The notes under the pieces were generated by a model. The model was not told the DNA's origin. It did not search any database and saw nothing but the letters and a program-made list of their open reading frames with translations. Source: Candidatus Roizmanbacteria bacterium (lineage in GTDB: Bacteria > Patescibacteriota > Microgenomatia > UBA1406 > GWC2-37-13). From it: 42,252 nt of DNA. Below, piece after piece: positions 3 to 38,291 of this stretch (positions within the stretch are counted from its first letter, which is position 1; the number at the start of each line of letters is the position of its first letter). The DNA lies in assembly GCA_016201695.1 (NCBI GenBank), contig JACQCK010000040.1:1-42252 (forward strand), given 5' to 3'. The position numbers and the translations under genes are program-made.

Positions 3-878
3 TTGCTTTATATTTCCGATAAAGACGGTTCTTACGATCTTTATCAGATGAATGCCGACGGCAGCGGCGACAAAAGGCTGACAACCGGTAAAGCCATAGA
101 AAATGCGCGTTATTCACCCGACGACGGCCAGTCGATTGCATATGTTGACTGGTCGGGAAATACTAAGACTATCAATATCATTCCCGGCAACACCATCGGT
201 TCGTCTGTTCCACCGACACATAGTTTTACACTCAATGACCTGTATGTTTACTATGTGGCATTTTCGCCCGACGGTCAACGGCTCATTATTGATAAAGTTC
301 AGTCAGCGGGAGCGCCGGAAAATTTATTCACCTCAACGCTTGACGGGGCGGACATGCAACCGCTTGACTCGGCGATAAGCAGCGGTTCTCTGGGGTATGG
401 CTATAGTTGGTATACGGTGCCGACTTCCTGTCAGAAGGCGAGCGGCGACGCCAACTGTGACGGTAAAGTAGACGACGCCGACTATGCGATCTGGCAGTGC
501 GAGTTCGTCGGTAACGGCAGCTGCGCCAGTCCGGCCAGTACCTTAACGGCAGATTTTAACAACGACGGTTGGGTGTCGCTCGTCGATTTTGAGGTCTGGC
601 GGCTGCATTTGAATGAAAGCCCGACGGCCACGCCGGTACCGACGGTGCCGCCGAGCCCGGCGTCAACCAATCAGGAGACCCCGACGCCGGGCCCAACCAA
701 TACACCTGGGACAAAACCAACCCTTACCCCGACGCCGACAGTCGTGTCTGACACCACGCCAACGCCGTCATTTACGCCGGTACCAAGACCAACCGAAACC
801 CCCGTACCAAGGCCGACAAATACGCCTGTACCTAAACCGACCAACACACCGGCGCCAAAACCAACGAGCCCGCCATAA
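3..878 (+). CDS. Secreted TolB/WD40-like propeller protein with C-terminal dockerin pair and PT-rich tail (5' partial)
   Basis: The reading frame is open at the left edge, so the true start lies outside the window. The first ~135 residues resemble TolB/WD40 propeller blades (YISDKDGSYDLYQMNADGS and AFSPDGQRLIIDKVQSAG are typical blade strands). Residues ~148-205 contain two calcium-binding dockerin half-motifs (DANCDGKVDDADYAIW and DFNNDGWVSLVDFEVW), in the type I D-x-N-x-D-G order. From ~210 to the end the protein is a Pro/Thr linker with tandem PVPRPTNT-like units. Dockerins bind cohesins, and cohesin-like domains are encoded just downstream, so an extracellular complex is plausible. The stop is 3 bases before the next start, indicating one operon. 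Domain calls are by motif only. Confidence 0.8.
   Translation: MLYISDKDGSYDLYQMNADGSGDKRLTTGKAIENARYSPDDGQSIAYVDWSGNTKTINIIPGNTIGSSVPPTHSFTLNDLYVYYVAFSPDGQRLIIDKVQSAGAPENLFTSTLDGADMQPLDSAISSGSLGYGYSWYTVPTSCQKASGDANCDGKVDDADYAIWQCEFVGNGSCASPASTLTADFNNDGWVSLVDFEVWRLHLNESPTATPVPTVPPSPASTNQETPTPGPTNTPGTKPTLTPTPTVVSDTTPTPSFTPVPRPTETPVPRPTNTPVPKPTNTPAPKPTSPP
775..873 (+). repeat. Tandem PT-rich coding repeat
   Basis: Near-periodic units encode variants of T-P-V-P-(R/K)-P-T-(N/E), with about 24 bases per unit and third-position drift. They make the extended C-terminal linker of the upstream propeller/dockerin protein. Such low-complexity linkers recur in neighbouring genes at about 1470-1670 and 3390-3470. 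Confidence 0.7.
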
Positions 879-881: not shown

Positions 882-2237
882 ATGGACGACAACCAAAACA
901 ACAACGCTAAAGTCAAAAAAATCAAAGCCGTACTGATGATACTGGTGGCGGTTCTTGTTGGCGGCGTTCTATTAAGGTACATAAACCGTTATCTGTTCCG
1001 GTCGCACGCGTCAGGTGATACGGTGAGCCTGGCTCTCAATCCGAAAACGGCTACGATGCCGGTCGATGCCGATACGACGATTAGTCTGGTGCTAACGACC
1101 GTCAGTAGCGACGGTAAAGTAAAGGGGATCTCCGGTTTTGATATTACTCTGGCAAAATCGGACAGCCTCGAGATTACCTCGGCCGACCTTCCCCGCGACG
1201 GCACCGGCAATACCTCGCTCTACTCGCTGGTCTACTCGGGCGGTAACCGCTATGTTTATACTGCCAAATATCCCGATGCGCAGTTGCCGGCGAGCGTCAT
1301 TCTGCCACTTCACGTTAAGGGCAATACAAACGCTAATGCCACCCTGTCATTTTTAAACAACACCGGACAGGTCACCGGAACAACTCAAGGATACGTCTTT
1401 ATGGTGGCTTCGGCCGATACCGGCAGTTATACCGTTGGTACGGGAACGCCCCCGACGCCGTCATTGACGCCGGCGCCAACGCCAACCGATACGCCAACGC
1501 CGCCCCCCGGCGCGAGTCCGACTCCGAATCCGACTCTTCCTCCCGGGGTTAGTCCTTCGCCGACTCCAACTGCTCCACCAGGCGTCAGTCCGTCAGCCGT
1601 CCCAACGCCAACCATCGCTAGTCCGACCGCAGGATTAACCGGGACGCCGAGCGTAACCCCAACTCCGGGTGCGGCCGGCAGCGTCAGCCTCGCCTTGAAA
1701 GTAAAGTTCCAGGGCGTGACCGGCAGCTTTACGCCGACAGTCACGTCGTTGCCCGTCAAAGTGACGGTAAGCGGAGGAAGTCTAAGCGCCCCGCTTACTC
1801 AAACGGTAACTTTTGCTTTAGGCAGTAATGGAGTCTGGGCCGCTGATGCCACCTTTGACGGATTGGATACCGCCGGCCAGTACGCCGTTCTTATCAAAGG
1901 TCCCAAGCATCTTCAGAAACGCGTCTGCGTCGCCGCGCCGGCCGAAGACCCGGCCGCCTCCTACCACTGCGATTCGGGGACAATCAAGCTTACGCCCGGC
2001 GTAAACGATCTGGATTTCAGCGGCGTTATCATGCTCGCCGGCGACATCCCGGCGCAGGACGGAATAGTCAACTCAATCGACGCCTCAACCGTGTACAATA
2101 ATATAGGGAAGACCGACCAGGAAGCGCTTGACTCTTCGGACTTAAACTATGATGGAGTAGTTGATACCCAGGACTATTCGCTAATTCTGGCGACGCTTGG
2201 TATCAGATACGACGACGGGGCGGTCACCGGACAGTAA
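882..2237 (+). CDS. Membrane-anchored cohesin-like protein with PT linker, Ig-like domain and C-terminal dockerin
   Basis: A 451-residue protein. An N-terminal membrane segment lies at about residues 11-27 (VLMILVAVLVGGVLL), followed by a beta-rich domain (about 43-185) that looks like a cohesin or cohesin-related fold: VSLALNPKTATMPV start, GISGFDITL core. A Pro/Thr-rich linker spans ~190-265. A second beta domain (about 270-385) has two cysteines near its end. The C-terminus carries a dockerin-like pair: one degenerate half (GDIPAQDGIVNSIDASTVY) and one good half (DLNYDGVVDTQDYSLILATL). A protein with both cohesin-like and dockerin-like parts could chain into polymers or bridge its operon partners. 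The start is 3 bases after the previous stop; I see no Shine-Dalgarno sequence. Function is inferred from motifs. Confidence 0.78.
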   Translation: MDDNQNNNAKVKKIKAVLMILVAVLVGGVLLRYINRYLFRSHASGDTVSLALNPKTATMPVDADTTISLVLTTVSSDGKVKGISGFDITLAKSDSLEITSADLPRDGTGNTSLYSLVYSGGNRYVYTAKYPDAQLPASVILPLHVKGNTNANATLSFLNNTGQVTGTTQGYVFMVASADTGSYTVGTGTPPTPSLTPAPTPTDTPTPPPGASPTPNPTLPPGVSPSPTPTAPPGVSPSAVPTPTIASPTAGLTGTPSVTPTPGAAGSVSLALKVKFQGVTGSFTPTVTSLPVKVTVSGGSLSAPLTQTVTFALGSNGVWAADATFDGLDTAGQYAVLIKGPKHLQKRVCVAAPAEDPAASYHCDSGTIKLTPGVNDLDFSGVIMLAGDIPAQDGIVNSIDASTVYNNIGKTDQEALDSSDLNYDGVVDTQDYSLILATLGIRYDDGAVTGQ

Positions 2238-2246
2238 TAAAAACCT

Positions 2247-2867
2247 ATGGATAATAACACCAGTTGGATAAAAACCCACGCAAAAATGCTTTGGCTGTTT
2301 GCCTTTGTCGTCTTGCTTGGGATCGTGCCCTTGATCCTAATAATTATGAAGGGCAAAAATGCGCCGGTCACCACCACCAATAATAATACCCGTCGTTATC
2401 TTGCCCCGCCGACGCCAACGCCAACGCCGCTCCCGCTCAATGCCGGTTACTCTTTCGAGCCGAAGACCGAGTTTGGCAAAACCCAGTTTGCCTTGACCGA
2501 TACGGTCAGTGTCATTATTGTCGGCGACAGTTCACAAAAAAACGTTACCGGTTTTGATATCGTACTGGCTTACGATCCGACGGTCGTGTCGTTTGTGTCC
2601 GTCCAGTCGGTTGACGCGCACTTTAAAGTCATCGCCATTCCCGGCCCAAAAAAAATCGTCTTTACGGCGGTTAGGAATTTGGGCAGTGCCGCCTCACCCT
2701 TGCTGGGAGACAGACCTCTTCTTAAAGTTGCCTTTAAGCCCCTTCGCAAGGGAAGCGTTGTGTTTGCGGTTGTTAAGAAAGACGGGTCTGACGTCACCGA
2801 AATAGTCGACGGGACATCAAAAGTTGAAGCCACAAAAGTAAGCGCCAAGACAGTGGAGATACTATAA
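2247..2867 (+). CDS. Membrane-anchored cohesin-like protein
   Basis: A 206-residue protein with one N-terminal transmembrane helix (about 13-34, LWLFAFVVLLGIVPLILIIM), a short PTPTPTPLP linker near residue 55, and a single beta-rich domain (about 70-200). The pattern VTGFDIVLAYDPTVVSFVSV matches the cohesin signature strand, where a conserved aspartate/tyrosine follows the hydrophobic strand. The domain probably faces outside. It is the third gene of the surface operon, 9 bases after the previous stop and 3 bases before the next start. It could serve as the anchoring cohesin for the dockerin-bearing neighbours; that pairing is inference. Confidence 0.72.
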   Translation: MDNNTSWIKTHAKMLWLFAFVVLLGIVPLILIIMKGKNAPVTTTNNNTRRYLAPPTPTPTPLPLNAGYSFEPKTEFGKTQFALTDTVSVIIVGDSSQKNVTGFDIVLAYDPTVVSFVSVQSVDAHFKVIAIPGPKKIVFTAVRNLGSAASPLLGDRPLLKVAFKPLRKGSVVFAVVKKDGSDVTEIVDGTSKVEATKVSAKTVEIL

Positions 2868-2870
2868 ACG

Positions 2871-3578
2871 ATGAAATATGCAACGGCAGCGACAATCGGA
2901 CTTTTTCTTTTTTTCTTCGGCTCTTTTTTTGTGCGGGCGAGCGAGGCGGCCAGTCTTAATTTCAGTCAGACTTCCTTTACGATCAATGTCGGCGACACGA
3001 TGACGGTTGACGCAAAAGTGGACGCCGGGACCGACAAAGTGTCGTCGGCCAATGTCTACGTCACCTACGACTCCACCGTTTTGGAAGCGACGAGCGTGAC
3101 CGACGGCTCCTTTTTTCCGGTTACGTCGCACTCGATTGCCGCCGGACGGATCTATATTTCCGGCGTGGTCAACGATATCAATCTGGCGCCAAGCGGTACC
3201 GGCAAATTGGCGACCATCATTTTCAAAAGCCTGAAAAGCGGCACGGCTACCCTGGCTTTTGACTGTTCCACCAGCTCAAACTCCACCTCAAAAGTCATTA
3301 AGAACGATGTCAACGCGACTAACGTTTTGATCTGCGCCCAAAACGGCACGGCGGCGGTCACGGTTGGAAGTGGCAGCGGCGGTAGTGGAACAGCGCCGAC
3401 TTCAACGCCGACCCCAACCACGGCGGCCGCCGGGCCGGCAGCGCCAACCAGCGCGCCGATAGTCAACCCGTCGACGCTGCCCCAAACCGGTTTTTTTGAT
3501 AACACCAAAAACTTCGCCACTTTTGGCGCTGTCCTTTTTGTGGCCGGAGTCTCGTTACGGATGTTATTAAAACTATGA
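2871..3578 (+). CDS. Secreted cohesin-domain protein with LPQTG-type C-terminal sorting signal
   Basis: A 235-residue protein. An N-terminal signal peptide (about 1-27, hydrophobic core IGLFLFFFGSFFV, likely cleaved after A-S-E-A-A) leads into a cohesin-like domain (about 28-165; SLNFSQTSFTINVGDTMTV and VYVTYDSTVLEATSV are typical first and third strands). A Gly/Ser/Pro/Thr linker follows. The C-terminus has LPQTG at 203-207, then a hydrophobic helix (FGAVLFVAGVSLRML) and a short basic tail, the layout of a sortase substrate. No sortase is encoded in this window, so it may equally be a membrane-retained tail. The stop overlaps the next start as ATGA, so the two genes are translationally coupled. 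Confidence 0.78.
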   Translation: MKYATAATIGLFLFFFGSFFVRASEAASLNFSQTSFTINVGDTMTVDAKVDAGTDKVSSANVYVTYDSTVLEATSVTDGSFFPVTSHSIAAGRIYISGVVNDINLAPSGTGKLATIIFKSLKSGTATLAFDCSTSSNSTSKVIKNDVNATNVLICAQNGTAAVTVGSGSGGSGTAPTSTPTPTTAAAGPAAPTSAPIVNPSTLPQTGFFDNTKNFATFGAVLFVAGVSLRMLLKL

Positions 3579-4234
3579 ATCAACATCATAAACTGATACG
3601 GATGATGGCGGTTGGTATCGGCGTTGTGATGTCGGGTGTCGTCGTCTTTATGGGCTTTACGGTCGCCGCCCGCTTTTTCACCAAAGCCAGTAACGATGCC
3701 CCAAGTGATGTTGCCATCACCAACATTACCCAAAACAGCGTCCGCCTTACCTGGACGACGGTGAGCGAGACGCAGGGAGTCGTTGAGTACGGGACATCCC
3801 TGACCGCGCTTAATTTTTTTGCCCCGGAGCCGGCCGCCAGCAAAAATCACGGCGTCGACCTGACGCTGCTGGCCAAAGACTCGACTTACTTATTTCAGAT
3901 CCGTATCGTCGATAGAAAGTATGGGATAGGCGGCACTAACGGTGCGGGAGTAGAGAACGGTCAGCCGTGGGACTTTAAAACCAAAAGTACGGCGACGACG
4001 ACCGTCTCAACCACCCCGACAGTCAATCCTTCCCCTTCGGAGGCCCCCCTTAGTAGCTTATCGCCGACACCGGTCTCGTCGGTCGTTATTCCTGACGCCG
4101 GCGGGAGCTGTACTTTTACCGACTGTCTCAAAATCTGTCAAAACAAACAACCGGCCGGCAGCTGCAGCACCCAGGAGTTCCAGAAAAGCGGCTGTATCGG
4201 CAAGGTGAGGTGGGATACCTGCGCGTCGCTCTGA
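3575..4234 (+). CDS. Membrane-anchored fibronectin type III-like protein with Cys-rich C-terminus
   Basis: A 219-residue protein with an N-terminal membrane helix (about 9-31, MAVGIGVVMSGVVVFMGFTV). Residues about 42-135 fit an FN3-like module: DVAITNITQNSVRLTW and TVSETQGVVEYG resemble the first strands of bacterial FN3 domains, and TYLFQIRIVD resembles the F strand. A Ser/Pro/Thr linker follows (~138-175). The last ~45 residues hold six cysteines (CTFTDCLKICQNK, CSTQEF, CIGKVRWDTC), probably a small disulfide-stabilised module. It is the last gene of the five-gene surface operon. The DsbB- and VKOR-like proteins elsewhere in the window could supply oxidation for such secreted cysteines (inference). 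Confidence 0.68.
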   Translation: MNQHHKLIRMMAVGIGVVMSGVVVFMGFTVAARFFTKASNDAPSDVAITNITQNSVRLTWTTVSETQGVVEYGTSLTALNFFAPEPAASKNHGVDLTLLAKDSTYLFQIRIVDRKYGIGGTNGAGVENGQPWDFKTKSTATTTVSTTPTVNPSPSEAPLSSLSPTPVSSVVIPDAGGSCTFTDCLKICQNKQPAGSCSTQEFQKSGCIGKVRWDTCASL

Positions 4235-4257
4235 AAAAGCCTTCGTCCCCGCCGCCA

Positions 4258-4911
4258 CTAGACAACGCCGCCGATATTGACCGGTAACAGGAGCTGTAAA
4301 ATAAAGTTTACCGCCGGACGGATAACCGCGTCGAGCATCGAACTCTGTCCCAAAGGCAAGATTAAAATTAGCAAAAATAGCAGTCCGTATCTTTCCAGCT
4401 CATACCATTCGCGCGCCCGCTCCCGCGGCAGCAGCCCGCCGACGATTTTAAAACCGTCCAAAGGATGGATCGGTAAAAGATTGAAAACGCCAAGAATAAC
4501 ATTGAGAGACAAAACCGGCGGCAGAAGGAGAAAGCCTATAGTTTGTAAAAATGAAAGATGTAAGAATATGATCGTTCTAATAAATATAGAGCAAATTAAA
4601 GCTAAAATAAAATTAGATACCGGACCGGCCAACGAGATGAGGGCGGCGTCTTGGCGCGGATGTTTCAGGTTGAACGGGTCAAACTGGACCGGCTTGCCCC
4701 AGCCGAAACCAAAAAGAAGTAAAAACAGGACACCCATGAGATCAAGATGAGAGCGGGGATTCAAAGTCAGCCTTCCCTGGAGCCTTGGGGTCGGGTCGCC
4801 CAGGCGGTCGGCGACATACGCGTGGGAAAACTCATGGATGGTTACGGCAACCAAGAGCCCAACCAGCGATAAAATAAAAAGGAGAGGGTTGGCGGCGAGC
4901 TGGGTAATCAT
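4258..4911 (-). CDS. Site-2 protease-like M50 membrane metallopeptidase
   Basis: A 217-residue multi-pass protein. The zinc-binding HEFSH (residues 26-30, HExxH class) lies in the first membrane segment, followed by AYVADRLGDPTPRLQGRLTL, the typical site-2 protease sequence of the YwhC/FtsH-associated small M50 type. The second metal site appears later as NLLPIHPLDGFKI, matching the family's NxxPxxxLDG motif. These enzymes cut transmembrane or membrane-proximal segments of substrate proteins; the substrate here is unknown. The gene is convergent with the surface operon (23-base gap) and divergent from rpmB. There is no PDZ insert, so this is the minimal form of the family. Confidence 0.9.
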   Translation of the reverse strand: MITQLAANPLLFILSLVGLLVAVTIHEFSHAYVADRLGDPTPRLQGRLTLNPRSHLDLMGVLFLLLFGFGWGKPVQFDPFNLKHPRQDAALISLAGPVSNFILALICSIFIRTIIFLHLSFLQTIGFLLLPPVLSLNVILGVFNLLPIHPLDGFKIVGGLLPRERAREWYELERYGLLFLLILILPLGQSSMLDAVIRPAVNFILQLLLPVNIGGVV

Positions 4912-5217: not shown

Positions 5218-5756
5218 ATTTCAACTTTCGTCAGTTTTTTTCCCTGTTCTTCGTAGACCGGAAGCGACTGCTCGATGGCGCGTTTCGTAAACAGTATCCC
5301 TTCAAGGTGGTCGACTTCATGCTGGATGATAACGGCCTCAAAAGAGGTAAACCATTTTGTATTTATTTTTCCCGCGAGGTCCTGATACTCGAGAGAGACT
5401 TTTATCGCCCGGCCGATCGGGCTCCAGATTTTGGGAATCGACAGACAACCTTCGAGTTTGTGGCGCCTGGTTTTTTTAGCGGAGGAGACCGGTTTTTTGG
5501 CTTTGGAAAAAATCAGCCGGCGGATTTTGGGATTGATAAACGCCCGGGGGGCCGCGTCGGGCGAGGGCTTCATAATAAAAAGAGCGAGCGATTGGCCGAT
5601 TTGTGGCGCCGCCAAGCCGACTCCCTGCGGGTCAACCTGGGCGTTTAGAGTGACCGCCATCTGTTTTATCAGTTGGCGGACTGGTTCATTGATGTTTTTT
5701 ACCGGTTGGGTCGGCGCCGTCAGGATCGGGTTGGGAACAGTAACAATTTTCAGCAT
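5214..5756 (-). CDS. def: Peptide deformylase
   Basis: A 180-residue metallo-enzyme that removes the N-formyl group from new proteins. All three family motifs are present: GVGLAAPQIG (45-54), EGCLSIP (102-108, metal-ligand cysteine) and QHEVDHLEG (145-153, HExxH-type metal ligands and catalytic glutamate). A Lys/Ser-rich stretch between residues ~84 and 100 is longer than usual before EGCLSIP. It lies 14 bases downstream of the DsbB-like gene on the same strand, so it may share that transcript. Confidence 0.95.
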   Translation of the reverse strand: MLKIVTVPNPILTAPTQPVKNINEPVRQLIKQMAVTLNAQVDPQGVGLAAPQIGQSLALFIMKPSPDAAPRAFINPKIRRLIFSKAKKPVSSAKKTRRHKLEGCLSIPKIWSPIGRAIKVSLEYQDLAGKINTKWFTSFEAVIIQHEVDHLEGILFTKRAIEQSLPVYEEQGKKLTKVEI

Positions 5757-5760
5757 AGAT

Positions 5761-5783
5761 AAGGGCTATTTTAGCCCTTTTTT
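5761..5783 (+). terminator. Candidate intrinsic terminator (forward strand)
   Basis: A perfect 8-bp hairpin, AAGGGCTA-TTT-TAGCCCTT, is followed by a run of T (5778-5783) in the forward direction. Forward transcripts reaching here would come from rpmB, running antisense to def. On the reverse strand the same hairpin sits between the DsbB-like stop and the def start but lacks a U-tract there. Confidence 0.5.
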
Positions 5784-6352
5784 AATAATCGGCCGGCTCC
5801 CGACCGTTGGGATCGGTGTCTGGCGGCCGCCAAGTGCAGCAAAACCAAGTTCAGCAAAAAGGCGGTCAACGCCATCATCGGGATGGTAATATAGCCGAAA
5901 TACAGGGTATAGGTTTTGGTGCACGAGACCTGGCCGCCGACCGAGCAGGGGAGAAAGGAAGAGCGCGGAGAGACCTGGATATAGTAGTGATAGCCGGCGA
6001 TCGCGGCACCGATAATGTTAAAAATCCTAAGGTAAGGGATCAGGATTTTTTCGTCCCGGAGGATTGAGATATAGAGAAGGAGCGCCTGCGGATACATCAA
6101 AATTCTTTGGTACCAGCATAAAAGGCACGGCGTAAACTTGGCGATTTCCGAAAAATACAGGCTGCCGAGCGTGGCCGTCAGCGAGACGACAAAAGACAGA
6201 AAGTAAGCTCGGGAAGAAAAATATTTGGCGAGGCGCGAATACAGCTTGCCGGCGGCGAGTTTTTCGAGTATAAAAAAGACAACGACGGCGGCGAGGAAAA
6301 CATCGCTTCCAACCGTCAGAAAGGCTAAAATATCGGGTACGACTTTGATCAT
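5771..6352 (-). CDS. DsbB-like disulfide bond formation membrane protein (BdbC type)
   Basis: A 193-residue four-helix membrane protein. It has the DsbB active-site pair CLLC (76-79) in FTPCLLCWYQRILMYPQALL and the second cysteine pair C136/C144 in FLPCSVGGQVSC. DsbB proteins re-oxidise a thioredoxin-like DsbA partner and pass electrons to quinone; no DsbA is seen in this window. I prefer the ATG at 6352 over a longer frame starting at 6376: a TATAAT box (6364-6359, reverse strand) ends 6 bases before it, which would make the mRNA leaderless and put the longer start inside the promoter. def follows 14 bases later. Confidence 0.88.
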   Translation of the reverse strand: MIKVVPDILAFLTVGSDVFLAAVVVFFILEKLAAGKLYSRLAKYFSSRAYFLSFVVSLTATLGSLYFSEIAKFTPCLLCWYQRILMYPQALLLYISILRDEKILIPYLRIFNIIGAAIAGYHYYIQVSPRSSFLPCSVGGQVSCTKTYTLYFGYITIPMMALTAFLLNLVLLHLAAARHRSQRSGAGRLLKKG

Positions 6353-6381: not shown

Positions 6382-7167
6382 ATGACGCTTTCCTTATGTA
6401 TCGCCGCTTTTAATGAAGAAAAATTCATCCACTACCCGCTGGACGCGGCCTACGCGATAGCCGACGAAGTGATTTTGGTCGACGGCGGTTCAACAGACGG
6501 CACCGTCAGAGTGGCCAAATCGTATGGAAAAAAAGTCGCGGTTATCCTCTCTGATAATCCGAAAATGTTCCATTTGAATAAACAGAAAACGATCGAGGCG
6601 GCTTCAAGCGACTGGATACTGCAGCTTGACGCCGATGAAACACTCTCACCCGAACTGGCCGAAGAGATCAAGGCGGTCGTTCAGGATCCGACCCGACACT
6701 TTGCCGGTTACCAAATCCCGCGCCGCAATTTTTTCCTCACCCGGTTTCTTCGGAAGGGCGGGCAGTACCCCGACTACACCATCCGCCTTTACAAAAACGG
6801 GGCGGCCAAATTTGCCTGCCGCGATATTCACGAAAATGTCGAGCTGAAAGGAGAGCTCGGGACGTTGGAGTTTCCGATTCTTCACTACGCCGATCAGACG
6901 TTTGGCCGTTATCTGGCCCGGTGGAATCGGTATATCTCGCTTGAAGTCCTGGCGATGAAAAAAAAGAACGTCAAGCCGTGCCGGCCATGCTATTTTATCG
7001 GCAAACCGCTGTATACTTTTTTGAATATGTATTTCCGGCACCTCGCCATTCTTGACGGATTCCCCGGATTTGTCTTCTCCCTGTTTTCGGCGATCCGCTT
7101 CTGGGCGATTTACATTAAATGGTGGCAGATGAGTAAAATCAAGGCGGGGTTGAAGTTATCCCGGTGA
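6382..7167 (+). CDS. Family 2 glycosyltransferase (WaaE/KdtX-like)
   Basis: A 261-residue GT-A enzyme. It opens with SLCIAAFNEEKFI, the nucleotide-binding start of GT2 enzymes, has DEVILVDGGSTDGT (28-41), and a QLDADE metal/nucleotide motif at 81-86. The later YPDYTIRLYKNGAAKF and DIHENVEL segments match the branch that includes the LPS core glucosyltransferase WaaE/KdtX. It probably adds a sugar to a cell-envelope glycan from a nucleotide-sugar donor; the acceptor is unknown. The C-terminal ~50 residues contain a hydrophobic, probably membrane-associated segment. It is transcribed divergently from the DsbB-like gene. Confidence 0.88.
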   Translation: MTLSLCIAAFNEEKFIHYPLDAAYAIADEVILVDGGSTDGTVRVAKSYGKKVAVILSDNPKMFHLNKQKTIEAASSDWILQLDADETLSPELAEEIKAVVQDPTRHFAGYQIPRRNFFLTRFLRKGGQYPDYTIRLYKNGAAKFACRDIHENVELKGELGTLEFPILHYADQTFGRYLARWNRYISLEVLAMKKKNVKPCRPCYFIGKPLYTFLNMYFRHLAILDGFPGFVFSLFSAIRFWAIYIKWWQMSKIKAGLKLSR

Positions 7168-7541: not shown

Positions 7542-8696
7542 TCACAGGCCGACTTTAAATTCAACGACGTCGCCGTCCTTCATCACGTAATCCCGGCCGA
7601 CGATTTGCACCAGTCCCATTTCGCGGGCTTTTGCCCAACCGTTGGCGTTGACAAATTCTTGAAAGGGGATGACGTCGGCTTTGATAAATTTTTTTTCGAA
7701 ATCGCTGTGAATGGTTCCGGCCGCTTGGGGAGCGCGGGTGCCGCGGGCGACCGTCCAGGCGCGCGCTTCGAGCTCGCCGGCGGTGAGAAAAGAAATGAGT
7801 CCGAGCGTCTCATAGGCTTTTTTAATGAGACGATTCAAACCGGTTTCGGCCAGACCATACTGTTTTAAATAGTCCTGTTGCTCCGGGGGAGAGAAGGCGG
7901 TGATTTCGCTTTCCAGTTTGGCGTTTAAGTACAGGTAATCATCCCGGCCCGGGCGGGGAGTCGGCGGCGGCGATGCGGCCTGATTTTGAGACGGAGGCTG
8001 TAATCCGTTCGCCGTAACGGTGAGCGCCGCTTCAATTTGGTTTACGGTCGCGGACTTATCCTCCAGCTGTTTTTCGGAAACGTTGAAAACATAAATAACC
8101 GGCTTGGCGGTCAGGAGTTGGAGCGGCCTTATCGCGTCTTTTTCTTCGGCGGTTAACGCCTGGCGTCGGACCGGTACTCCCTGATTGAGGTCGTTTCGTA
8201 CTTTGACCGCCGTTTTATAATTGAAGTGTTCGGTTTTGGCCGCGCTTTGGCGCGGTTCTTTCTGTTTTTCCAGAGTTGCCAGGTCGGCGAGCATGAGTTC
8301 GGCTTCGATAACCTGGATGTCGTTTTCCGGCCTGATTTCGCTTCCGACGTGGACGACATTTGCGTCGGCAAACAGACGAACGACGTGAACAATCGCGGCC
8401 ACTTCCCGAATATGCGACAGAAATTTATTTCCCAAACCTTCGCCCTGCGAGGCGCCCTTTACCAGACCGGCGATATCATAAAACTCAACGACCGCCGGTA
8501 CGATTTTTTCGGTTTTGACAATTTTGGCGAGGACGGCCAGCCGTTCGTCCGGGACCGCGATGACGCCGACATTCGGTTCGATGGTGCAGAAAGGGTAGTT
8601 GGCCACATTGGCGACCTGTTTTTTCAAGACGGCGTTGAAAAGAGTCGATTTGCCGACATTCGGCAGCCCGACAATTCCGATCGAAAGCTTAGCCAT
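7542..8696 (-). CDS. ychF: Redox-regulated ATPase/GTP-binding protein YchF
   Basis: A 384-residue Obg-like P-loop NTPase. The P-loop GLPNVGKST is at 10-18, followed by the TIEPNVGVI switch region and [20 protein letters not shown], the hallmark G3 region of YchF/OLA1. The base-specificity motif reads NVSE, the family's NxxE form associated with ATP preference. The C-terminus ([18 protein letters not shown]...[18 protein letters not shown]) is the TGS domain. It binds ribosomes and is linked to stress and redox control in other bacteria. A short Pro-rich insert ([17 protein letters not shown]) before the TGS region is unusual. A TATAAT (8705-8710 reversed) ends 8 bases before the start. Confidence 0.96.
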
Positions 8697-8732
8697 GGTT
8701 ACTTATTATAGCACTCAAGGTAGTTGCGGTCA

Positions 8733-8864
8733 CGCCACTTCCGAAGTGGCGAATTATACTAAGGCCGTCATGACAAGATAATAAAATTCGTCTCCGTACA
8801 TTTACAGCCTGCCGTTTACAGTAGAGAAGAGAACGGCGGGCTAAACGCCACTTCGGAAGTGGCG
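8733..8864 (+). repeat. 132-bp palindrome-ended repeat, family A copy 1
   Basis: Both ends are 19-bp palindromes with 9-bp arms: CGCCACTTCCGAAGTGGCG (8733-8751) and CGCCACTTCGGAAGTGGCG (8846-8864). The 94-bp core contains an inner stem AGCCTGCCGTT / AACGGCGGGCT around a 15-base loop. A second copy of the same length and orientation lies at 12364-12495 with 5 differences, all in the core. It sits between the ychF promoter and the 3' end of the 979-residue gene, whose stop is only 7 bases away. It codes for nothing I can see. It could be a miniature mobile element or a structured RNA/terminator. Confidence 0.9.
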
Positions 8865-8871
8865 CCGAGTC

Positions 8872-11811
8872 TTAGGATTTTTGTTTTCGTTCTTGAGCCG
8901 CGCCGAGTATGCTATTGAGGCTATCCTGTATGCGGGAAGTATTATAATCATCTTTGGCCAATAGTTTAATAACCGGTTCGAGCCGTACAGCGGAAAGATC
9001 AAGCCCGTCGAGCCTTGCCGCAATTGATGATTGAATAAGCCGCTGTAGCGCTTGCCGTAAGGGCTCATTAATATCGCCGAATTTTGCTTCATAGTCACTA
9101 CTTCCATAATAGACTGGTTTGCCGAGTTTCTCTTGATAGGCCTTGATGGCCTCACTTATTGTTGGCGGCATATAATTGGCATACATTTGATTTATTAATT
9201 TAGCGAGTGCGTCTAACTGCCAACGATTAACAGCGGCCTGCTGATCACGCAATTCATGAAAAAGTGGGGCGAGTAAATGGCCTCCTTCGCCATCCGGGCC
9301 GATATTCCAGTTAGTAGCACCTAAATTCAGGACTTGTGTCTCGGTTGGTTGCTCGAATCGCGATCTAAGCGGTGGAACGGTAAGCGTATTTGGTTTTTCG
9401 GCGGCGTTCGGATCAAACGGCGGGTTGGTCCGGTTCTTTAGATAGGCCGCGACAACGTCGGCCGGATCTTCTACTTCGTTACTCAATAGCGTTAACCGAC
9501 CGGCGACCTCGGCGGCTTTTGCGGTCACTAGACTGTCCAAAAAAGTTAAAATATTAGGGTCGGCAATATTTATGCCTATTTTTAACTTGTCCCCTACTGA
9601 CTCTTCAATTAATGCTTTTATTTTATTGGCCTGTTTTCTGTCGCCAATCTTGAGTAGACTTATACTCTTTGCCGCCGCCTGCCATTCACGTTGCCATGTC
9701 TTTATCTTTTTTTTAGCGTATTCTACATCAGCTTGAACGACTATGGCTCCGTTGATATCGGGTAGAAACGATTCTATCTTGGCCGCTCGTGCCTGTGCCT
9801 TTGATTCACGGCTGCGATAAGCCGCATCACCAACCGGTTCTTTGTTGGGCGAATAATAGTCGGAAACCTTTAGACCGGCGACTAGAGTAAGAGCGTTTTC
9901 AGCGCCGATATGCTTTTCTTGATCCAAGAGCAGTTTCGCCTTCCTTAAGGCGCCCAATTGCCTTAACGGGTCAAGAGCTTCGCTTACCTGTGCATCAATT
10001 ACCGACTTTTCTTCGCGACGCGCGTAATCGTTATATGGACGTGACTCTGCATCCCTATGCCGATATTTACCCATTCCGTTTGATGTCTGGCCGTCTTGAT
10101 ACATATTGCAACCGGGCATTGCGTATACTGTTTCTTCGAGAATTGCTTCCGTAGTCGCGGCACCAATCTGGCGGAGAGTGTCAAGAAAACCGAGGGGATG
10201 GTTGTAATATCTGTTTTGCTCCGGCTGAAAGATAGTTACGATTGCCGAGTTGGCCGCGCCCACCATCAGGCCGACCCGATTATGAATATCAATCAGTAGT
10301 TCTTTTTCAATTCCGAATTTCTTTGCCTGATTAAAATATTCGGTAATCTGTTGGCTAAAGGCATGGGCATGGCTTCCTTGAGGCCCGGCAAGAAGTGTTC
10401 GGGTATAGTCGGTGACAAAGGCAAGTGGTTTCATGTTGTCAGGTGTATTTTCAGGCTCCTGCAAACTGAACTTGGGATTCAGACCATTTGTTAGCAACCG
10501 GAACATATCGGCCGCAGCTTTAAGCTGCGGAAGAGCGGCGCCGATACCGGTCCCACCGGCCGCTTTTTGCTTAAAGACATCTTCAAGGTAGCCGCTTATT
10601 ACCTGCGCGAAAATTATCTTCCGGGCGACGGCTCCGGCATTGCCGATTATAACGGATTCGTTGTTATGATCTGCCGAGATCATATTTTCGATATGATTAG
10701 CCATTGAGTTAGAGTCGTTAAATCCCGGGATATTGCTTTTGAGGATTGCCGACCCTATCTTTTCTTTTGTCTCATCAAGAAGCCGCCGGGAGAGATCAAG
10801 TTCGATCGATCCAACGTCGCTCTTGCCGACAATATCGATGCTTTGCCGATCTCCGGACAGATTAATGAGTTTGGCAATTTCTGATTTTTGTTCTTCGTGA
10901 CCGTCTGGCACCGACCGCCATACCGCGATTGAAATATTAAGCAACTCTTTTTGTCGTTGCGAGGACAAGGAGGATAAAGCGACCATAAATTTTTCAGAAT
11001 CATAGTTGCCGTTGGCTCCCGGCTGACAAACCGCCTGAATGCCAAGACCCATGGCAAAGGAAGCTAGCTGTACCTCGTCTTTTGAGCGAATTATTGTTGA
11101 TAAATTAGATCCCAATGGTACATTAAATGAATATTGTATCCCAGCAAAAAGCTTGACCATGAGCCGTTCATGGGCTTGAATAATCGGGTCGTTACCCAGC
11201 AGTTGTTGTTTCTGCCAGTCCTCCGGAGACATTTGCAGTCCGGCGTGGGTCGTGTCTATTGCGGTCACAAGGGCGACGGCAAGACTGGTTTTTACTTCCG
11301 GGTCGGTATTTATTGGTAAAGTCAATCCTGCTTTTTCACCGGTCCCGGCAATCGCGAGGGCCGGATCAGTTAGAGTCGCGAGCATACGGTCATCGATATA
11401 ATCACGGATACTCGCAGACAACTTAGCCCCTTCCCCCTGCTCGACGCGTTTTGTCGTCTCTGTTCTGACAGCTGTGGAAACAAGTTGCCGCAACCTATCA
11501 AGGATTATTACTTCGGTCAAGTGTCCCGACTCCTTCTGCAACTTGTTGTTAAGCTCGTTTATTCTTTCAAGCCAAAATCCGGAGGTTCCCATGGCGGCGG
11601 TTATAAACCTGTGTGCTTCTACTGAAGCCAAGTCCACCGATCGTATCATCTCCGGAATTTCTCTTTCCTCCGTTGGGATCAATCTGCCAAATAGATTCTC
11701 GGTCATTTCTTGTCCGGCGCTGATTTCAACATCCTTCATAGCGACCGAAACAATCCGTGCTTTCAACGCAGGTCCTAAAGGAATTTGTGGAAGAATTTCT
11801 TGTGATGACAT
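8872..11811 (-). CDS. Large soluble protein of unknown function (979 aa)
   Basis: A 979-residue protein I do not recognise. It has no signal peptide, membrane helix, P-loop or HExxH motif. It is predicted to be largely alpha-helical, with Gln/Ala/Leu-rich stretches; a short Gly-rich segment (AAGGTGIGAALPQLKAAADM) lies in the first half, and the middle has an aromatic/polar stretch (CNMYQDGQTSNGMGKYRHRD). The last ~150 residues have repeated amphipathic helices. It follows the 147-residue gene with a single base between stop and start, so the two are surely co-transcribed from the consensus promoter at 12277-12305. The pair is bracketed by two 132-bp repeats. A structural or scaffold role is possible but unsupported. 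Confidence 0.85.
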   Translation of the reverse strand: MSSQEILPQIPLGPALKARIVSVAMKDVEISAGQEMTENLFGRLIPTEEREIPEMIRSVDLASVEAHRFITAAMGTSGFWLERINELNNKLQKESGHLTEVIILDRLRQLVSTAVRTETTKRVEQGEGAKLSASIRDYIDDRMLATLTDPALAIAGTGEKAGLTLPINTDPEVKTSLAVALVTAIDTTHAGLQMSPEDWQKQQLLGNDPIIQAHERLMVKLFAGIQYSFNVPLGSNLSTIIRSKDEVQLASFAMGLGIQAVCQPGANGNYDSEKFMVALSSLSSQRQKELLNISIAVWRSVPDGHEEQKSEIAKLINLSGDRQSIDIVGKSDVGSIELDLSRRLLDETKEKIGSAILKSNIPGFNDSNSMANHIENMISADHNNESVIIGNAGAVARKIIFAQVISGYLEDVFKQKAAGGTGIGAALPQLKAAADMFRLLTNGLNPKFSLQEPENTPDNMKPLAFVTDYTRTLLAGPQGSHAHAFSQQITEYFNQAKKFGIEKELLIDIHNRVGLMVGAANSAIVTIFQPEQNRYYNHPLGFLDTLRQIGAATTEAILEETVYAMPGCNMYQDGQTSNGMGKYRHRDAESRPYNDYARREEKSVIDAQVSEALDPLRQLGALRKAKLLLDQEKHIGAENALTLVAGLKVSDYYSPNKEPVGDAAYRSRESKAQARAAKIESFLPDINGAIVVQADVEYAKKKIKTWQREWQAAAKSISLLKIGDRKQANKIKALIEESVGDKLKIGINIADPNILTFLDSLVTAKAAEVAGRLTLLSNEVEDPADVVAAYLKNRTNPPFDPNAAEKPNTLTVPPLRSRFEQPTETQVLNLGATNWNIGPDGEGGHLLAPLFHELRDQQAAVNRWQLDALAKLINQMYANYMPPTISEAIKAYQEKLGKPVYYGSSDYEAKFGDINEPLRQALQRLIQSSIAARLDGLDLSAVRLEPVIKLLAKDDYNTSRIQDSLNSILGAAQERKQKS

Positions 11812-11812
11812 A

Positions 11813-12256
11813 TTAGTTAAGGTATCCGGAATTGGCTAAAAAAGCGTCAAACTCTCGAAGCAGCGTTGAAAATTCGTTGATAAGCGCTAACTTAAGATAA
11901 GTGGCGGTAGTCATCATCCCGGTCTGTCGGCGACCTGGATCTTCTTTTTCTCGTGATGTTTTATTCAGCTCCTCAAGTAACGAGCGAAGAATTGATAAAT
12001 TTGTCTGAAAGGTAACATACTTGTTTAACAATCTTTCCTGTGAGTCCTTATCATTTCTCTGAAACTTTTTGACCTCATTTTTTAACGATCTTTCTGTCGC
12101 GGCAATATGATTCAAAAGATCTTGACGCGAAAGGAGAAACTTTATTTCTGGATTCATTTTTACGACAGTAGACGGATCAGGATCGGTGCTCTGGCTAAGG
12201 TAGAGTTTACGAAGAATTTTTTCAACCGAAGAGTAGGTAGAATCGTGTGTGTTCAT
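11813..12256 (-). CDS. Small helical protein of unknown function, partner of the 979-aa protein
   Basis: A 147-residue soluble protein with no recognised family. The central part (NHIAATERSLKNEVKKFQRN and RLLNKYVTFQTNLSILRSLL) looks like a two-helix coiled coil, and the C-terminal helix (YLKLALINEFSTLLREFDAF) is strongly amphipathic, so it may form oligomers or bind its neighbour. It is the first gene of a two-gene operon: its stop is one base before the 979-residue protein's start. A TTGACA-17-TATAAT promoter lies 20 bases upstream, the best consensus promoter in the left half of the window, suggesting strong expression. Confidence 0.82.
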   Translation of the reverse strand: MNTHDSTYSSVEKILRKLYLSQSTDPDPSTVVKMNPEIKFLLSRQDLLNHIAATERSLKNEVKKFQRNDKDSQERLLNKYVTFQTNLSILRSLLEELNKTSREKEDPGRRQTGMMTTATYLKLALINEFSTLLREFDAFLANSGYLN

Positions 12257-12276
12257 ATTTGAACAGCCTTTACCCG

Positions 12277-12305
12277 ATTATAAATCAACCGTCATATGTT
12301 GTCAA
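12277..12305 (-). promoter_or_regulatory. Consensus sigma-70-type promoter of the 147/979 operon
   Basis: On the reverse strand, TTGACA (12305-12300) is separated by exactly 17 bases from TATAAT (12282-12277). The ATG follows 20 bases later, leaving a leader of about 13 bases with no clear Shine-Dalgarno sequence. Repeat copy 2 begins about 60 bases upstream. Confidence 0.85.
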
Positions 12306-12363
12306 GGAAAATTATCGTACTCGGGGGTAAGTCGGAGGCATGTGTGTAAACAGTCGCGTGTCA

Positions 12364-12495
12364 CGCCACTTCCGAAGTGGCGAATTATGTTAAGGCCGTC
12401 ATGACAAGATAATAAAATTCGTCTCCGTACATTTACAGCCCGCCGGTTGCAGTAGAGAAGAGAACGGCGGGCTAAACGCCACTTCGGAAGTGGCG
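12364..12495 (+). repeat. 132-bp palindrome-ended repeat, family A copy 2
   Basis: Same length and orientation as the copy at 8733-8864. The end palindromes (12364-12382 and 12477-12495) are identical to those of copy 1. The core differs at 5 positions. The inner stem reads AGCCCGCCG / CGGCGGGCT, so the T of copy 1 opposite G is C here and pairing is kept. It lies between the promoter of the 147/979 operon and the flavin reductase-like gene. With copy 1 it brackets the cassette as direct repeats. Confidence 0.9.
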
Positions 12496-12544
12496 CGCAA
12501 TCAGTATGTCGGAATCGTTTGCTATACTTTCATTTGGTATTTTT

Positions 12545-13243
12545 ATGTTTTATTCCTATCGGGTACAAAGCGTCGTTAAAGACGCGCTTGATACCTATGT
12601 TGTCCGCGTCGGTGCGGCGGAAAATTCGCTTGGGCCTTTTTTACCCGGCCAGTTTTGCAATATTGTCAACCCGGGTTATATCCGTTCCACCGAAGCGCAC
12701 CCTTTTTCGATCGCCTCGTCTCCGTTGGCAAAAAATTATCTTGAGTTTTGCGTAAAAGTTTACCACGACTGGACCCGTGCCTTAGCGGCGCTTCCCAAAG
12801 ACGCCGAAATAAAAGTCGAGGGGCCGTTGGGACAGCCGCTTACTGGTGTTACTTCGCCTTATATGGTTTTTTTGGTCGGCGGAGTCGGGATCTCGCCGGT
12901 TATTTCCTACCTAAGATACCTTCACGACCAACAAGAGAAAAAAGATTTTCTTCTGCTCTACGGCAATCGGGACGAGCCGTCGGTTGTCTACCGCGCCGAA
13001 CTGGAAAAACTGGCCAAAGAGCTCGGGGGAAGAGTCGTCCACCTTCTATCAGATTTACCGCCAGACAGTCCCTGGACGGGGTACCGCGGTTTTTTAACAA
13101 AAGAGATACTTAAAAAAGAAGTTGATTTTGAGAAAAACCCGACTTTCTATCTGCGGGGTCCGCCGGTTTATGTTGAAAAGACAACGGAACTGCTATACGC
13201 ACTTCAGGTCCCGGCAACAAAGATTAATCAGGAGTCTTACTAA
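12545..13243 (+). CDS. FAD/NAD(P)-binding oxidoreductase (ferredoxin reductase-like)
   Basis: About 232 residues. The N-terminal half is a ferredoxin-reductase-type FAD barrel: FLPGQFCNI (33-41) and HPFSIASSP (52-60), the equivalent of the flavin-binding RxYS motif and closest to the HPFT/S form of ferric reductases and NADPH oxidases. The C-terminal half is an NAD(P) domain with GGVGISPVISYLRYL (112-126), LLYGNRDEPSVVYRAEL and a final YLRGPPVYVEKTTELL. It probably moves electrons between NAD(P)H and a flavin or iron partner that is not visible nearby. I prefer the ATG at 12545 over 12506 because a TATACT box lies at 12523-12528. The stop overlaps the hflX stop by 4 bases. Confidence 0.85.
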   Translation: MFYSYRVQSVVKDALDTYVVRVGAAENSLGPFLPGQFCNIVNPGYIRSTEAHPFSIASSPLAKNYLEFCVKVYHDWTRALAALPKDAEIKVEGPLGQPLTGVTSPYMVFLVGGVGISPVISYLRYLHDQQEKKDFLLLYGNRDEPSVVYRAELEKLAKELGGRVVHLLSDLPPDSPWTGYRGFLTKEILKKEVDFEKNPTFYLRGPPVYVEKTTELLYALQVPATKINQESY

Positions 13244-14352
13244 ACAGTGCCAAAATACGTCGCGATTGTTTTTTTTAGATCGTCGATTCCGATACCTTTC
13301 TCTGCCGAGATAAACTGCGGGCGGTGCCGGCCGTAGTCGATAAGAAGAGTCTGTTGGGAGATGGGGGAAGGCCGGTCGACTTTGTTAAAAACATACAGGT
13401 GGTCTTTAAACTCTATCTGCAGATCGTGAAGAATGTTTTCGACGGCGATGATTTTCTCGCGTATCTTCGGGTCGGAACTGTCGATGACATGAAGAAGAAG
13501 TCGGGAATGAATTGACTCGGTGAGGGTCGACTTAAAAGCCTGGATCAGCGCCGGCGGTAAATTTTGGATAAAACCGATCGTATCAGAAATAAGCACCTCT
13601 TTTTTTATCGGCGCAAGATACATTTGTCCAACGCTGCTGTCAAGAGTGGCAAACAGGATATCGGAGGCCAGTTTTCGCTTGTTGGCGAGACGATTGAACA
13701 GAGTCGTTTTGCCGGCATTCGTATAGCCGACGAGAGAAACGGTCTGCAGTCCGAGTTCTTGTCTGCGCTTCAGCCGTTGTTCCCGGCCTTGTTCGTATTT
13801 TTCGAGTTGGTCGGCGACTTTTTTTATCTGAATTCGCCAGTGACGTTTCATCAGCTCAATATTCGTTTCGCCAAGGCCCCGAGTGCCGATGCCTCCGCCC
13901 TGGCGGGAAAAATAAGTCTCACCCAGGCCGTATATACGCGGGCCCATATGTTTCATCCGGGCGAGCTCAATCTGGAGTTTGGCCTCGGCCGAAACCGCGT
14001 GTTTGTAAAAGATATTTAAAATTAGACCGACTCGATCCCAGACTTCGGTTTCGGGACGGGTGGACCAAAAAAGTTTTTGTAAGTTAAATATCTGCATCGG
14101 GTTAACCAAAGCGTCAAGCACGACGACGTCAATCCGTTCCCGCTTGACCATTTCGCTAAGTTCGAGAGCCTTACCGGTGCCGATAAATGTTTTGGGGTGG
14201 GGGGAATTGCGGTGCTGAATAACGCGGACGATGTCGGCCCCACCGTAAGTTGTCACCAGTGAGTGTAGTTCGTCCATGTCTTCGGCCGCGTCGGCGTGGC
14301 GGACGTGCGGATCGATAACCCGGACCAAAATAAATCGTTTGGCATTTTGCAT
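13240..14352 (-). CDS. hflX: GTPase HflX
   Basis: A 370-residue ribosome-associated GTPase. The N-terminal HflX domain contains HPKTFIGTGKALEL and the family signature GGIGTRGLGETNIELMKRHW. The G domain has the P-loop GYTNAGKTTLFNRL, the G3 motif DTIGFIQNLPP and the G4 motif NKVD. HflX splits stalled or stress-damaged 70S ribosomes. Length is typical. It converges on the flavin reductase-like gene with a 4-base overlap and diverges from the SGNH-type gene. Confidence 0.96.
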   Translation of the reverse strand: MQNAKRFILVRVIDPHVRHADAAEDMDELHSLVTTYGGADIVRVIQHRNSPHPKTFIGTGKALELSEMVKRERIDVVVLDALVNPMQIFNLQKLFWSTRPETEVWDRVGLILNIFYKHAVSAEAKLQIELARMKHMGPRIYGLGETYFSRQGGGIGTRGLGETNIELMKRHWRIQIKKVADQLEKYEQGREQRLKRRQELGLQTVSLVGYTNAGKTTLFNRLANKRKLASDILFATLDSSVGQMYLAPIKKEVLISDTIGFIQNLPPALIQAFKSTLTESIHSRLLLHVIDSSDPKIREKIIAVENILHDLQIEFKDHLYVFNKVDRPSPISQQTLLIDYGRHRPQFISAEKGIGIDDLKKTIATYFGTV

Positions 14353-36332: not shown

Positions 36333-36423
36333 CGCCACTTCGGAAGTGGCAGTTGAATTAGGTCGATACAACAGTCGGAATTAAGACGTTAATTTGGTCT
36401 TTCCGCCACTTCGGAGGTGGCGG
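36333..36423 (+). repeat. 91-bp palindrome-ended repeat, family B copy 1
   Basis: The left palindrome GCCACTTCGGAAGTGGC (36334-36350) and the right palindrome CCGCCACTTCGGAGGTGGCGG (36403-36423, one mismatch) enclose a 52-bp core with two short stems: TCGAT-ACAACA-GTCGG and AATTAA-GACG-TTAATT. Copy 2 at 40115-40205 has the same length and orientation and only a few differences. The end palindromes are those of family A. The reverse-strand Nudix gene ends inside this element. Confidence 0.9.
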
Positions 36424-36991
36424 CAAAGAACTCAGAATATTTTCTTTTGGCGACTGTCCAGGCGGCGATTGTTACGGCTGTCGATATCTGATTTGTAATA
36501 ATCAACTCCTCGATTTCTTGTGGAGAGAGCGTAAGGACTTCGATTTCTTCAGTTTCGTCGAGATGTTGAACCGAGTTAAAACTCACCTCTTTGGCAAAAT
36601 AACAGTAAACTTTTTCAGTTCCTTTGGTGACAAAGCCAGCCAGAGTTGCAAAATATTCAAGACTATCGGTTTTGATCCCGGTTTCTTCCTCAAGTTCGCG
36701 GATGGCTTTTTCTTTGGGATCGTCTGAACTTGATTCAAGCCTGCCGGTGGGAAATTCAATCGTCATATCACCGAATCCTGGTTTAAACTGTCGTACCATA
36801 ACTACTAATTTGTCCGTTGTGACGGCCACAACCATCCCCACATCTTGAATAGTAGTGACGAGAAAATCATCAATTATCTTACCGTTGGGGAGTTGATAGG
36901 CGCGTTTCTCAAGAGAAAACCATTTGCTTGGCGAAATATCCTCCCCTTTCAACAGTCGCCATTTTTTAAGTTTAGTTGGACCGGGTGGCAT
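36389..36991 (-). CDS. Nudix hydrolase (ADP-ribose pyrophosphatase-like)
   Basis: A 200-residue protein with a Nudix box at about 83-106 (PTGRLESSSDDPKEKAIREL followed by EEETGI). The spacing from the first Gly to REL is one residue longer than the canonical Gx5Ex7REUxEExGU, as in some ADP-ribose pyrophosphatases. The preceding VVMVRQFKPGFGDMTIEFPTG is the usual ADPRase strand pair. It likely hydrolyses ADP-ribose or a related nucleoside-diphosphate sugar. The last eleven or so residues (AATSEVAERPN) are encoded by the repeat element, so the original C-terminus was probably replaced. A TACCAT hexamer ends 6 bases before the ATG. Confidence 0.9.
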   Translation of the reverse strand: MPPGPTKLKKWRLLKGEDISPSKWFSLEKRAYQLPNGKIIDDFLVTTIQDVGMVVAVTTDKLVVMVRQFKPGFGDMTIEFPTGRLESSSDDPKEKAIRELEEETGIKTDSLEYFATLAGFVTKGTEKVYCYFAKEVSFNSVQHLDETEEIEVLTLSPQEIEELIITNQISTAVTIAAWTVAKRKYSEFFAATSEVAERPN

Positions 36992-37026
36992 ATCTTTATG
37001 GTAGCAAAATGAATTATAATTATATA

Positions 37027-37583
37027 GTGAAACTGAAATTTCTCAATCTCAATATCTGGCTTGGTGGAATGCTTTTTCGCTCGGCACTGAAATTTTTGAA
37101 AGCAGAAAACGCCGATATCATCACTCTTCAAGAGGTTTATAATGGGCATGGCCCTATCTTGGAGAGTGGAATTTTTTTCCTAGAAATCTTCAACGAGCCA
37201 GTATCCAAATAGAAAAGCATACTATAAATGTCTATAATACCCAGGGTATTTACGGACTTGACGGTGGGGACAACCGGAGAAGACGACACATGAGTAAAGT
37301 AATTATAGACGAAATAAAAGATAAGGAAAATATTATTTTAGCCGGCGATTTCAATGTTAAGCCAAAAACAAAAACAATTACCGATATCGAAAATTATTTA
37401 GTCAATGTGTTTAAAAATGAATTAAAGTCTACGTTTAATATGCGGCAAAAAACCGATCCCGGCTACGCAACTGCTGTAGTAGATATGATCTTTGTCAGCC
37501 GAAATTTTAAAGTCGCTAAGCATTCTTGTCCAGATATCGACGTTTCCGACCACTTACCTTTGGTCGCTGAATTGACAATATAG
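37027..37583 (+). pseudogene. Broken endonuclease/exonuclease/phosphatase (EEP) family gene
   Basis: The N-terminal part, from a GTG at 37027, reads LKFLNLNIWLGG and ADIITLQEV (with the catalytic glutamate) and stops at 37212. The -1 frame then continues as PRNLQRASIQIEKHTINVYN and DGGDNRRR into the part from 37290, which has ILAGDFNV (catalytic D and N), STFNMRQKTDPGYATAVVDM and DVSDHLPLVAEL (the DH pair). The middle of the family is missing (roughly 70 residues), and the frame changes near a T7 run at 37172-37178, so this is most likely a decayed gene. A TATAAT ends 6 bases before the GTG. Confidence 0.75.
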
Positions 37584-37592
37584 TCCGTGGAA

Positions 37593-38291
37593 CTATTTTT
37601 CTAAAATCCAATCAATAACCATTTTTTTAACCCTAAAGTATTCGTCCTTTCCAAACTGCATATTGGCAATACAGTATTTCTTTGATCGGAGATGGGAACA
37701 AAAAAGGCATTCGTACAAATCAAAGCCGTCATGAATAAACATCGACCTGGATACCTTATTCGACCATGAGACTTCAAAGCAAGAAGAACAGTAAATGCTT
37801 TCTTTTACCCGGATTCCCAATGTACAAGATGAGTTATCACGAGAGGCAAGCATATAATTGTTGTCAAAAACCTTGTAAGAAAAAATTATATTCTTTGAAT
37901 CAAAGACAGAGACGCTATGATACACAAAAACGCTACTATATATGCCATCGGACTCTGACACTTCCCTCGAGTTAATATATTTCTCACCAGTAATATAATT
38001 GATTTGCTTCCACGCTCTAAGAACATCCTTAATAGAATTCAACGGTTGTTGTTTTTTCATCCATTCGTCCCTTTTAAATTTGTCGGCGATGGCTTTCTGC
38101 GAAGCAATCATCTCCGATTCTTGTGAAAAAGACCAGGTATTTTCGTGAGATAAAGCGCAGATAACTCTATTAGCCATTGGAATATCGAAGGCAAACATTC
38201 TTTTTAATTCCGTTAGCGAATGGATACTTTTCTTACTAAATATATCCATAAAAATATAATCGGCTATTTCTTTAGCTTTTTGGCTATTCAT
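37593..38291 (-). CDS. CxxC-containing protein linked to a HerA/TraC-like ATPase
   Basis: A 232-residue protein. The C-terminal third has a putative zinc site: SIYCSSCFEVSWSNK, then YECLFCSHLRSKKYC and FGKDEYFRVKKMVIDWIL. I have an impression that this C-x2-C-F, C-x2-C, KKYC, EYF pattern recurs in uncharacterised CPR proteins. The N-terminal part is helical and holds no known domain. Its start overlaps the stop of the upstream ATPase gene as ATGA, so both are made from one mRNA. It may be a DNA- or partner-binding accessory of the ATPase (inference). Confidence 0.72.
   Translation of the reverse strand: MNSQKAKEIADYIFMDIFSKKSIHSLTELKRMFAFDIPMANRVICALSHENTWSFSQESEMIASQKAIADKFKRDEWMKKQQPLNSIKDVLRAWKQINYITGEKYINSREVSESDGIYSSVFVYHSVSVFDSKNIIFSYKVFDNNYMLASRDNSSCTLGIRVKESIYCSSCFEVSWSNKVSRSMFIHDGFDLYECLFCSHLRSKKYCIANMQFGKDEYFRVKKMVIDWILEK

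Follow-up and report, generated by a model that had tools for sequence, protein, structure and literature searches.

This locus raises the question of what an operon of two genes without evident relatives is doing between two copies of a repeat, and of how the repeats came to stand on either side of it. The window, by which we mean the whole stretch of 42,252 nucleotides that was analysed, belongs to a 57-contig assembly that alone represents its genus among the genomes searched. We lean towards an account in which an accessory operon lies between sister copies of a REPIN-like element, the element is moved by a RAYT-like protein and the bracket has arisen from local copying. The features on which this account is built are collected in Table 1.

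Table 1. Positions of genes, promoter, repeat elements and palindrome-bearing ORFs (window positions unless another locus is named).
Feature	Position	Strand	Remark
979-aa ORFan gene P0001	8872-11811	-	Second operon gene, ATG start; no convincing relative
147-aa ORFan gene P0002	11813-12256	-	First operon gene, ATG start; no convincing relative
Sigma-70-type promoter TTGACA-17-TATAAT of the gene pair	12277-12305	-	Consensus match
REPIN-like element (inverted palindrome doublet)	8729-8865		6 nt past P0001 stop codon; single-strand fold z -7.55
Sister REPIN-like element	12360-12496		Same orientation, 96% identical, upstream of gene-pair promoter
91-nt REPIN-like element, left copy of second window pair	36333-36423		Contains 3' end of NUDIX gene
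91-nt REPIN-like element, right copy of second window pair	40115-40205		91% identical to left copy
Genes inside second window pair	36389-40003	-	NUDIX 36389-36991; 232-aa 37593-38291; HerA/TraD-like ATPase 38288-40003
97-aa ORF inside second window pair	37290-37583	+	
ORF with in-frame palindrome	L026 (C19) 5725-6180		
ORF with in-frame palindrome	L024 (C37) 2218-3981		
ORF with in-frame palindrome	36389-36991		
ORF with in-frame palindrome	L031 (C53) 3702-4772		
ORF with in-frame palindrome	L030 (C47) 1911-2585		

The gene pair and its promoter

The original prediction described a gene pair separated by one base under the best promoter in the left half of the window, and the anatomy agrees with this description. 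On the minus strand a single base lies between the stop of P0002 and P0001, with both genes starting at ATG, and the promoter matches the consensus at 12 of 12 positions, which places it first among the 16 promoter-like sites between 5 and 16 kb. Perfect TTGACA-(16..18)-TATAAT sites occur twice in the whole window, compared with a mean of 0.01 in shuffled sequences, and as the other one lies at 42102-42130 on the minus strand, the first remains the best of the left half. The other site is found upstream of a gene at 41494-42033 that we take to be NYN-like. From the promoter alone we infer that expression of the pair may be strong. We propose that this single promoter drives P0002 and then P0001, and that the 1-nt gap would couple their translation. 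The third-position GC of the two genes (0.46 in P0001, 0.40 in P0002) is below that of the nine genes measured to their left (0.56-0.66) and the three to their right (0.50-0.61), yet inside the range of the window. The oxidoreductase ORF to the right begins at 12506, 10 nt past the right-hand element; since the alignment with its best relative does not begin before residue 15, translation may in fact start at the ATG near 12545.

The two proteins

Both proteins are singleton ORFans and are probably all-helical and soluble. The solubility named in the original prediction is consistent with the hydropathy profiles, whose highest 19-residue values are 1.52 and 0.91 and in which no membrane segment is seen. 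Single-sequence AlphaFold models could be made for each protein as had been proposed, with mean pLDDT values of 35.9 and 54.4, at which they carry no fold information; DSSP assigns nothing but helices to these low-confidence models, in keeping with the predicted helical character.

At the level of profile libraries the claim that neither protein shows a known motif was borne out. Pfam and PHROGs gave no match to either protein at E up to 1, NCBIfam gave nothing for P0001 and one match at E 0.2 for P0002, and PADLOC, in which neither protein matched a described anti-phage protein, gave one weak P0001 match (E 0.032) and none for P0002. No confident assignment to a known family resulted from these searches, and Rfam had no match over positions 8000-13500. 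Across 96 genomes (its own and 95 relatives) P0001 matched only itself. Contig searches, which were seeded by exact short peptides and detect close relatives only, found no relative of P0001 in viral contigs, genome contigs, phages or plasmids, and none of P0002 in genome contigs or viral contigs. The absence of a convincing relative supports the description of both as proteins of unknown kind. With regard to co-occurrence of the two genes in other genomes, on which the original prediction rested its refutation, neither gene was found outside this genome in the collections searched.

Several weak matches were discarded. Six non-self matches to P0001 in a 379-genome sample of the phylum (own genome included; E 0.012-0.07, 46-153 residues) were rejected as chance, and three of them hold internal stops. 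The single match to P0002 among the 95 relatives (E 0.001) contains six internal stops. The PDB matches, to the phage cargo protein gp45 for P0002 (E 0.31) and at E 1.1 for P0001, were likewise set aside.

It is very doubtful that the pair forms a defence, virion or host-contact system. Its accessory distribution, its strong promoter match and the presence of a large protein without a known kind would fit such a role, but the searches of PADLOC, PHROGs, phages, plasmids and viral contigs were empty or weak, and the hydropathy profiles show no membrane segment. The suggestion of a new scaffold, defence or cell-interaction system found no positive evidence in the PADLOC matches or the models. 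In our account the small, helical P0002 and the large, soluble, probably all-helical P0001 would meet in a cytoplasmic complex; we put forward this soluble two-protein complex with low confidence, on the basis of gene adjacency. As P0001 and P0002 are singletons, nothing general follows from the proteins yet. Their setting outweighs them: an untagged REPIN-like family together with a RAYT-like gene in a genome of roughly 1 Mb, where sister elements stand around genes of patchy distribution.

A family of palindromic elements and a RAYT-like gene

The repeats said to bracket the gene pair are indeed present, as 137-nt direct repeats. They are REPIN-like elements, in a genome that also has a RAYT-like transposase gene. 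Each repeat is an inverted doublet of the palindrome CGCCACTTCNGAAGTGGCG, with one copy after the first 4 nt and one at the end. Allowing up to 2 mismatches, the palindrome is found 28 times in the 985-kb genome (reversed control pattern: 0) and in none of the 95 relatives, and the repeats had no match in phages, plasmids or viral contigs. Around the palindrome sites we found 11 doublets, with palindrome starts 71-121 nt apart, as well as singlets. The doublets fall into size classes of about 132-140 nt and 90 nt, and the mobile unit would be a 90-140-nt element with inverted palindromes at its ends. Eight of the 11 doublets were folded as single-stranded DNA, and all eight of these inverted-end doublets lie under the mean of their shuffled sequences, with z between -2.2 and -7.6. 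The copy downstream of P0001 probably caps its mRNA as a 3' hairpin. The family is dispersed and mostly extragenic, although 9 of 32 palindromes fall within an ORF of at least 150 aa or touch its edge, some of these ORFs being doubtful.

Only one of the 32 palindromes carries a GT[AG]G tag at its foot, and for this reason we do not count the family among the classic GTAG REPs. Target duplications of at least 4 nt are absent at 10 of the 11 elements, the exception being a single match of 4 nt, for which chance gives 5% per site. Such an absence would be anticipated for HUH transposition and not for the DDE kind.

The candidate for such an activity is a 224-aa protein encoded at C47 1911-2585 on the minus strand, which matches the NCBIfam family NF047646 (REP_Tyr_transpos) at E 3.5e-14 with 52.9 bits against a cut-off of 80, and Pfam Y1_Tnp at E 3.3e-4 with 21.2 bits, just under the cut-off of 23. 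It is the only Y1_Tnp (HUH) match of the genome, and was not matched in viral contigs. In a weak alignment to the E. coli TnpAREP structure 4er8 (E 0.55), the stretches H-x-H and Y-I-x-x-N-P can be located. The gene sits between the doublets at C47 1895-2028 and 2638-2728; the former covers its last 38 codons and thus encodes the C-terminus of the protein. Judged by sequence, and with the protein below both curated cut-offs, repeats and gene together look like a REPIN/RAYT system, or a TIRtron, that lacks the GTAG tag. We propose that this single RAYT-like HUH/tyrosine transposase disperses the element in trans, acting on single-stranded DNA.

Comparison with known systems

As far as REPIN/RAYT systems (REPtrons) are outlined in the relevant parts of PMC3116915 and PMC6006769, they share with our family the inverted doublets of short palindromes, a single hairpin, many copies, singlets beside doublets and, for our RAYT-like candidate gene, the position between repeats. 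Our elements differ in the missing tag and the low copy number (28 palindromes), and their sister doublets stand 2.8-3.8 kb apart around genes, where the same parts of those sources describe tandem REPIN clusters including flanks. RAYT subclasses with atypical repeats are mentioned in a section of PMC6006769. TIRtrons, as presented in part of PMC3733652, have RAYT-like genes (TIRYTs) between untagged, non-GTAG inverted repeats of a moderately abundant family, which resembles the situation here; compared with the terminal repeats by that description, the ends found here differ in being near-perfect palindromes themselves. The geometry of CGCCACTTCNGAAGTGGCG is near that of the S. maltophilia REP, given in an excerpt of PMC8266576 as an 8-bp palindrome with a 3-nt loop. 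A limited literature search returned no apparent report of RAYT or REPIN for CPR/Patescibacteria, to which this genome would belong according to the original prediction and its size.

Sister elements and the genes between them

Three sister pairs account for six of the 11 doublets; they lie at 8733/12364 and 36333/40115 in the window and at C37 20041/22889. Within these pairs the interiors are 95, 94 and 100% identical, whereas the next best element reaches 72, 81 and 72%. The members of each pair are on the same contig, adjacent and in direct orientation (3/3). Under random placement of the 11 elements all three pairs would be adjacent with P 0.00078, a value from a post hoc test that leaves orientation uncounted and uses elements obtained by pattern search. 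In all three pairs the shared sequence ends within 4 nt of the outer edges of the elements. Target duplications are absent from the outer ends of all three, including the 5-bp duplication of TIME-COMP and Tn3 MITEs. In the second window pair one right-hand palindrome (36404-36422) reads as the exact reverse complement of the other (40186-40204; three differences), with the interiors still direct, as if the palindrome had been flipped as a hairpin.

The bracketed genes look patchily distributed, as judged from sequence searches of relatives. The first window pair encloses the P0002/P0001 operon, with P0001 in 0 of 95 relatives; the operon would be specific to this genome, occupying the interval between the two sister copies. 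YchF, to the left of this pair, is found in 47 of 56 relatives. The C37 pair encloses metallo-beta-lactamase-fold, polysaccharide deacetylase and PRK08356-like genes, each matched once among 56 relatives and never within the same family, whereas a GH18 gene just outside it has matches at E below 1e-50 in 29 of the 56. From the second window pair, the 232-aa gene and the ATPase are adjacent in 2 of 56 relatives, there without flanking repeats and elsewhere in the genome; in the one of these two whose neighbours were read, the surroundings differ. A close ATPase without the 232-aa neighbour occurs in a third relative, and the HerA/TraD-like ATPase homologue of G034 (L101 6291-8015) is split into two ORFs of 210 and 360 aa. 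The sequences on either side of the second window pair do not clearly count as core, with the NYN gene in 7 of 56 relatives at E below 1e-50. Between 36.9 and 42.2 kb the GC content drops to 33-36% from about 46%; this drop crosses the outer limit of the second pair, and the AT-rich region therefore extends beyond the unit enclosed by the two elements.

Among 29 YchF loci and 28 loci from the oxidoreductase search, each extending at most about 1.5 kb beyond the match, no relative had the oxidoreductase of the window beside YchF as an empty site. The neighbour on the other side of YchF (gene 6382-7167) is retained in 13 of the 29 YchF loci.

Origin of the brackets

The simplest account of the sister pairs is local copying, with gene capture as the bold alternative and gene conversion as the dull one. 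Most likely the element was copied locally across a stretch of patchy genes and its orientation was kept. Transposases of the RAYT superfamily use single-stranded DNA, according to part of PMC6006769, and in our view such a substrate would favour one orientation nearby. A partial parallel is provided by TIME-COMP2, for which the available part of PMC4133298 ascribes a pair of identical miniature elements that share one orientation to a second copy transposing nearby, by a different transposase.

Conversion between close direct repeats is ordinary. Concerted evolution, in which gene conversion homogenised two unrelated copies that happened to be near each other, is a rival that would make the pairs uninformative on the origin of the genes. 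We consider it unlikely. In the C37 pair the interiors are identical and yet two palindrome positions differ, as conversion could produce, but each of the three pairs has a single size class and a single orientation, and the likeness stops at the element edges.

The same sharp edges would also be produced by gene capture at a REPIN. Here a RAYT-like nuclease would nick one strand at the first inverted palindrome of an element and the other strand at the second, so that the broken ends are staggered by about 100-130 nt. Foreign DNA would be joined to them, and fill-in would duplicate the whole element as direct repeats around the cargo. The identity within pairs, far exceeding that between them, fits this reading, as do the contents: P0001 in 0 of 95 relatives, P0002 also in 0 of 95 after discounting the match with six stops, the C37 genes set against their GH18 neighbour, and the displaced 232-aa/ATPase pair. 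However, no biochemical study in the literature consulted provides a precedent for TnpAREP cutting opposite strands, intergenic elements would often adjoin accessory genes anyway, and the second window unit lies in flanks that include the infrequent NYN gene. We regard capture as distinctly improbable, and the broader proposal that REPIN-like elements are landing sites for captured genes, with sister elements as scars that mark acquired genes such as this ORFan operon, as very improbable. If the brackets do mark acquired genes, they would be a simple finder of recent gains in small genomes, and would suggest a mechanism, open to testing, for the movement of host genes by domesticated HUH transposases.

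It is also improbable, and to a slightly greater degree than capture itself, that a DDE transposon has the repeats as its MITEs and that the RAYT-like gene is nearby by chance: TIME-COMP composites, in the portion of PMC4133298 that describes them, do have inverted-repeat ends and near-identical miniature elements on both sides of host genes, with the same orientation possible, but they differ in their Tn3-type 38-bp ends and 5-bp target duplications, neither of which is seen here, and the only Y1 transposase gene of the genome lies between two of the 11 elements.

Palindromes within genes and a duplicated tRNA stretch

At several places the palindrome lies in frame within or at the end of a gene (Table 1), where its translation is ATSEVA or ATSEVL. 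Its place in a greA-family gene is residue 70 of 151. A further direct duplication, at L031 (C53) 1861-2033 and 3564-3739, covers a stretch with tRNA-Lys and one palindrome (42 nt at 100% and 116 nt at 97% identity). Its copies are about 1.7 kb apart with a weakly BrnA-like gene in the interval, and the second tRNA-Lys copy reads as damaged.
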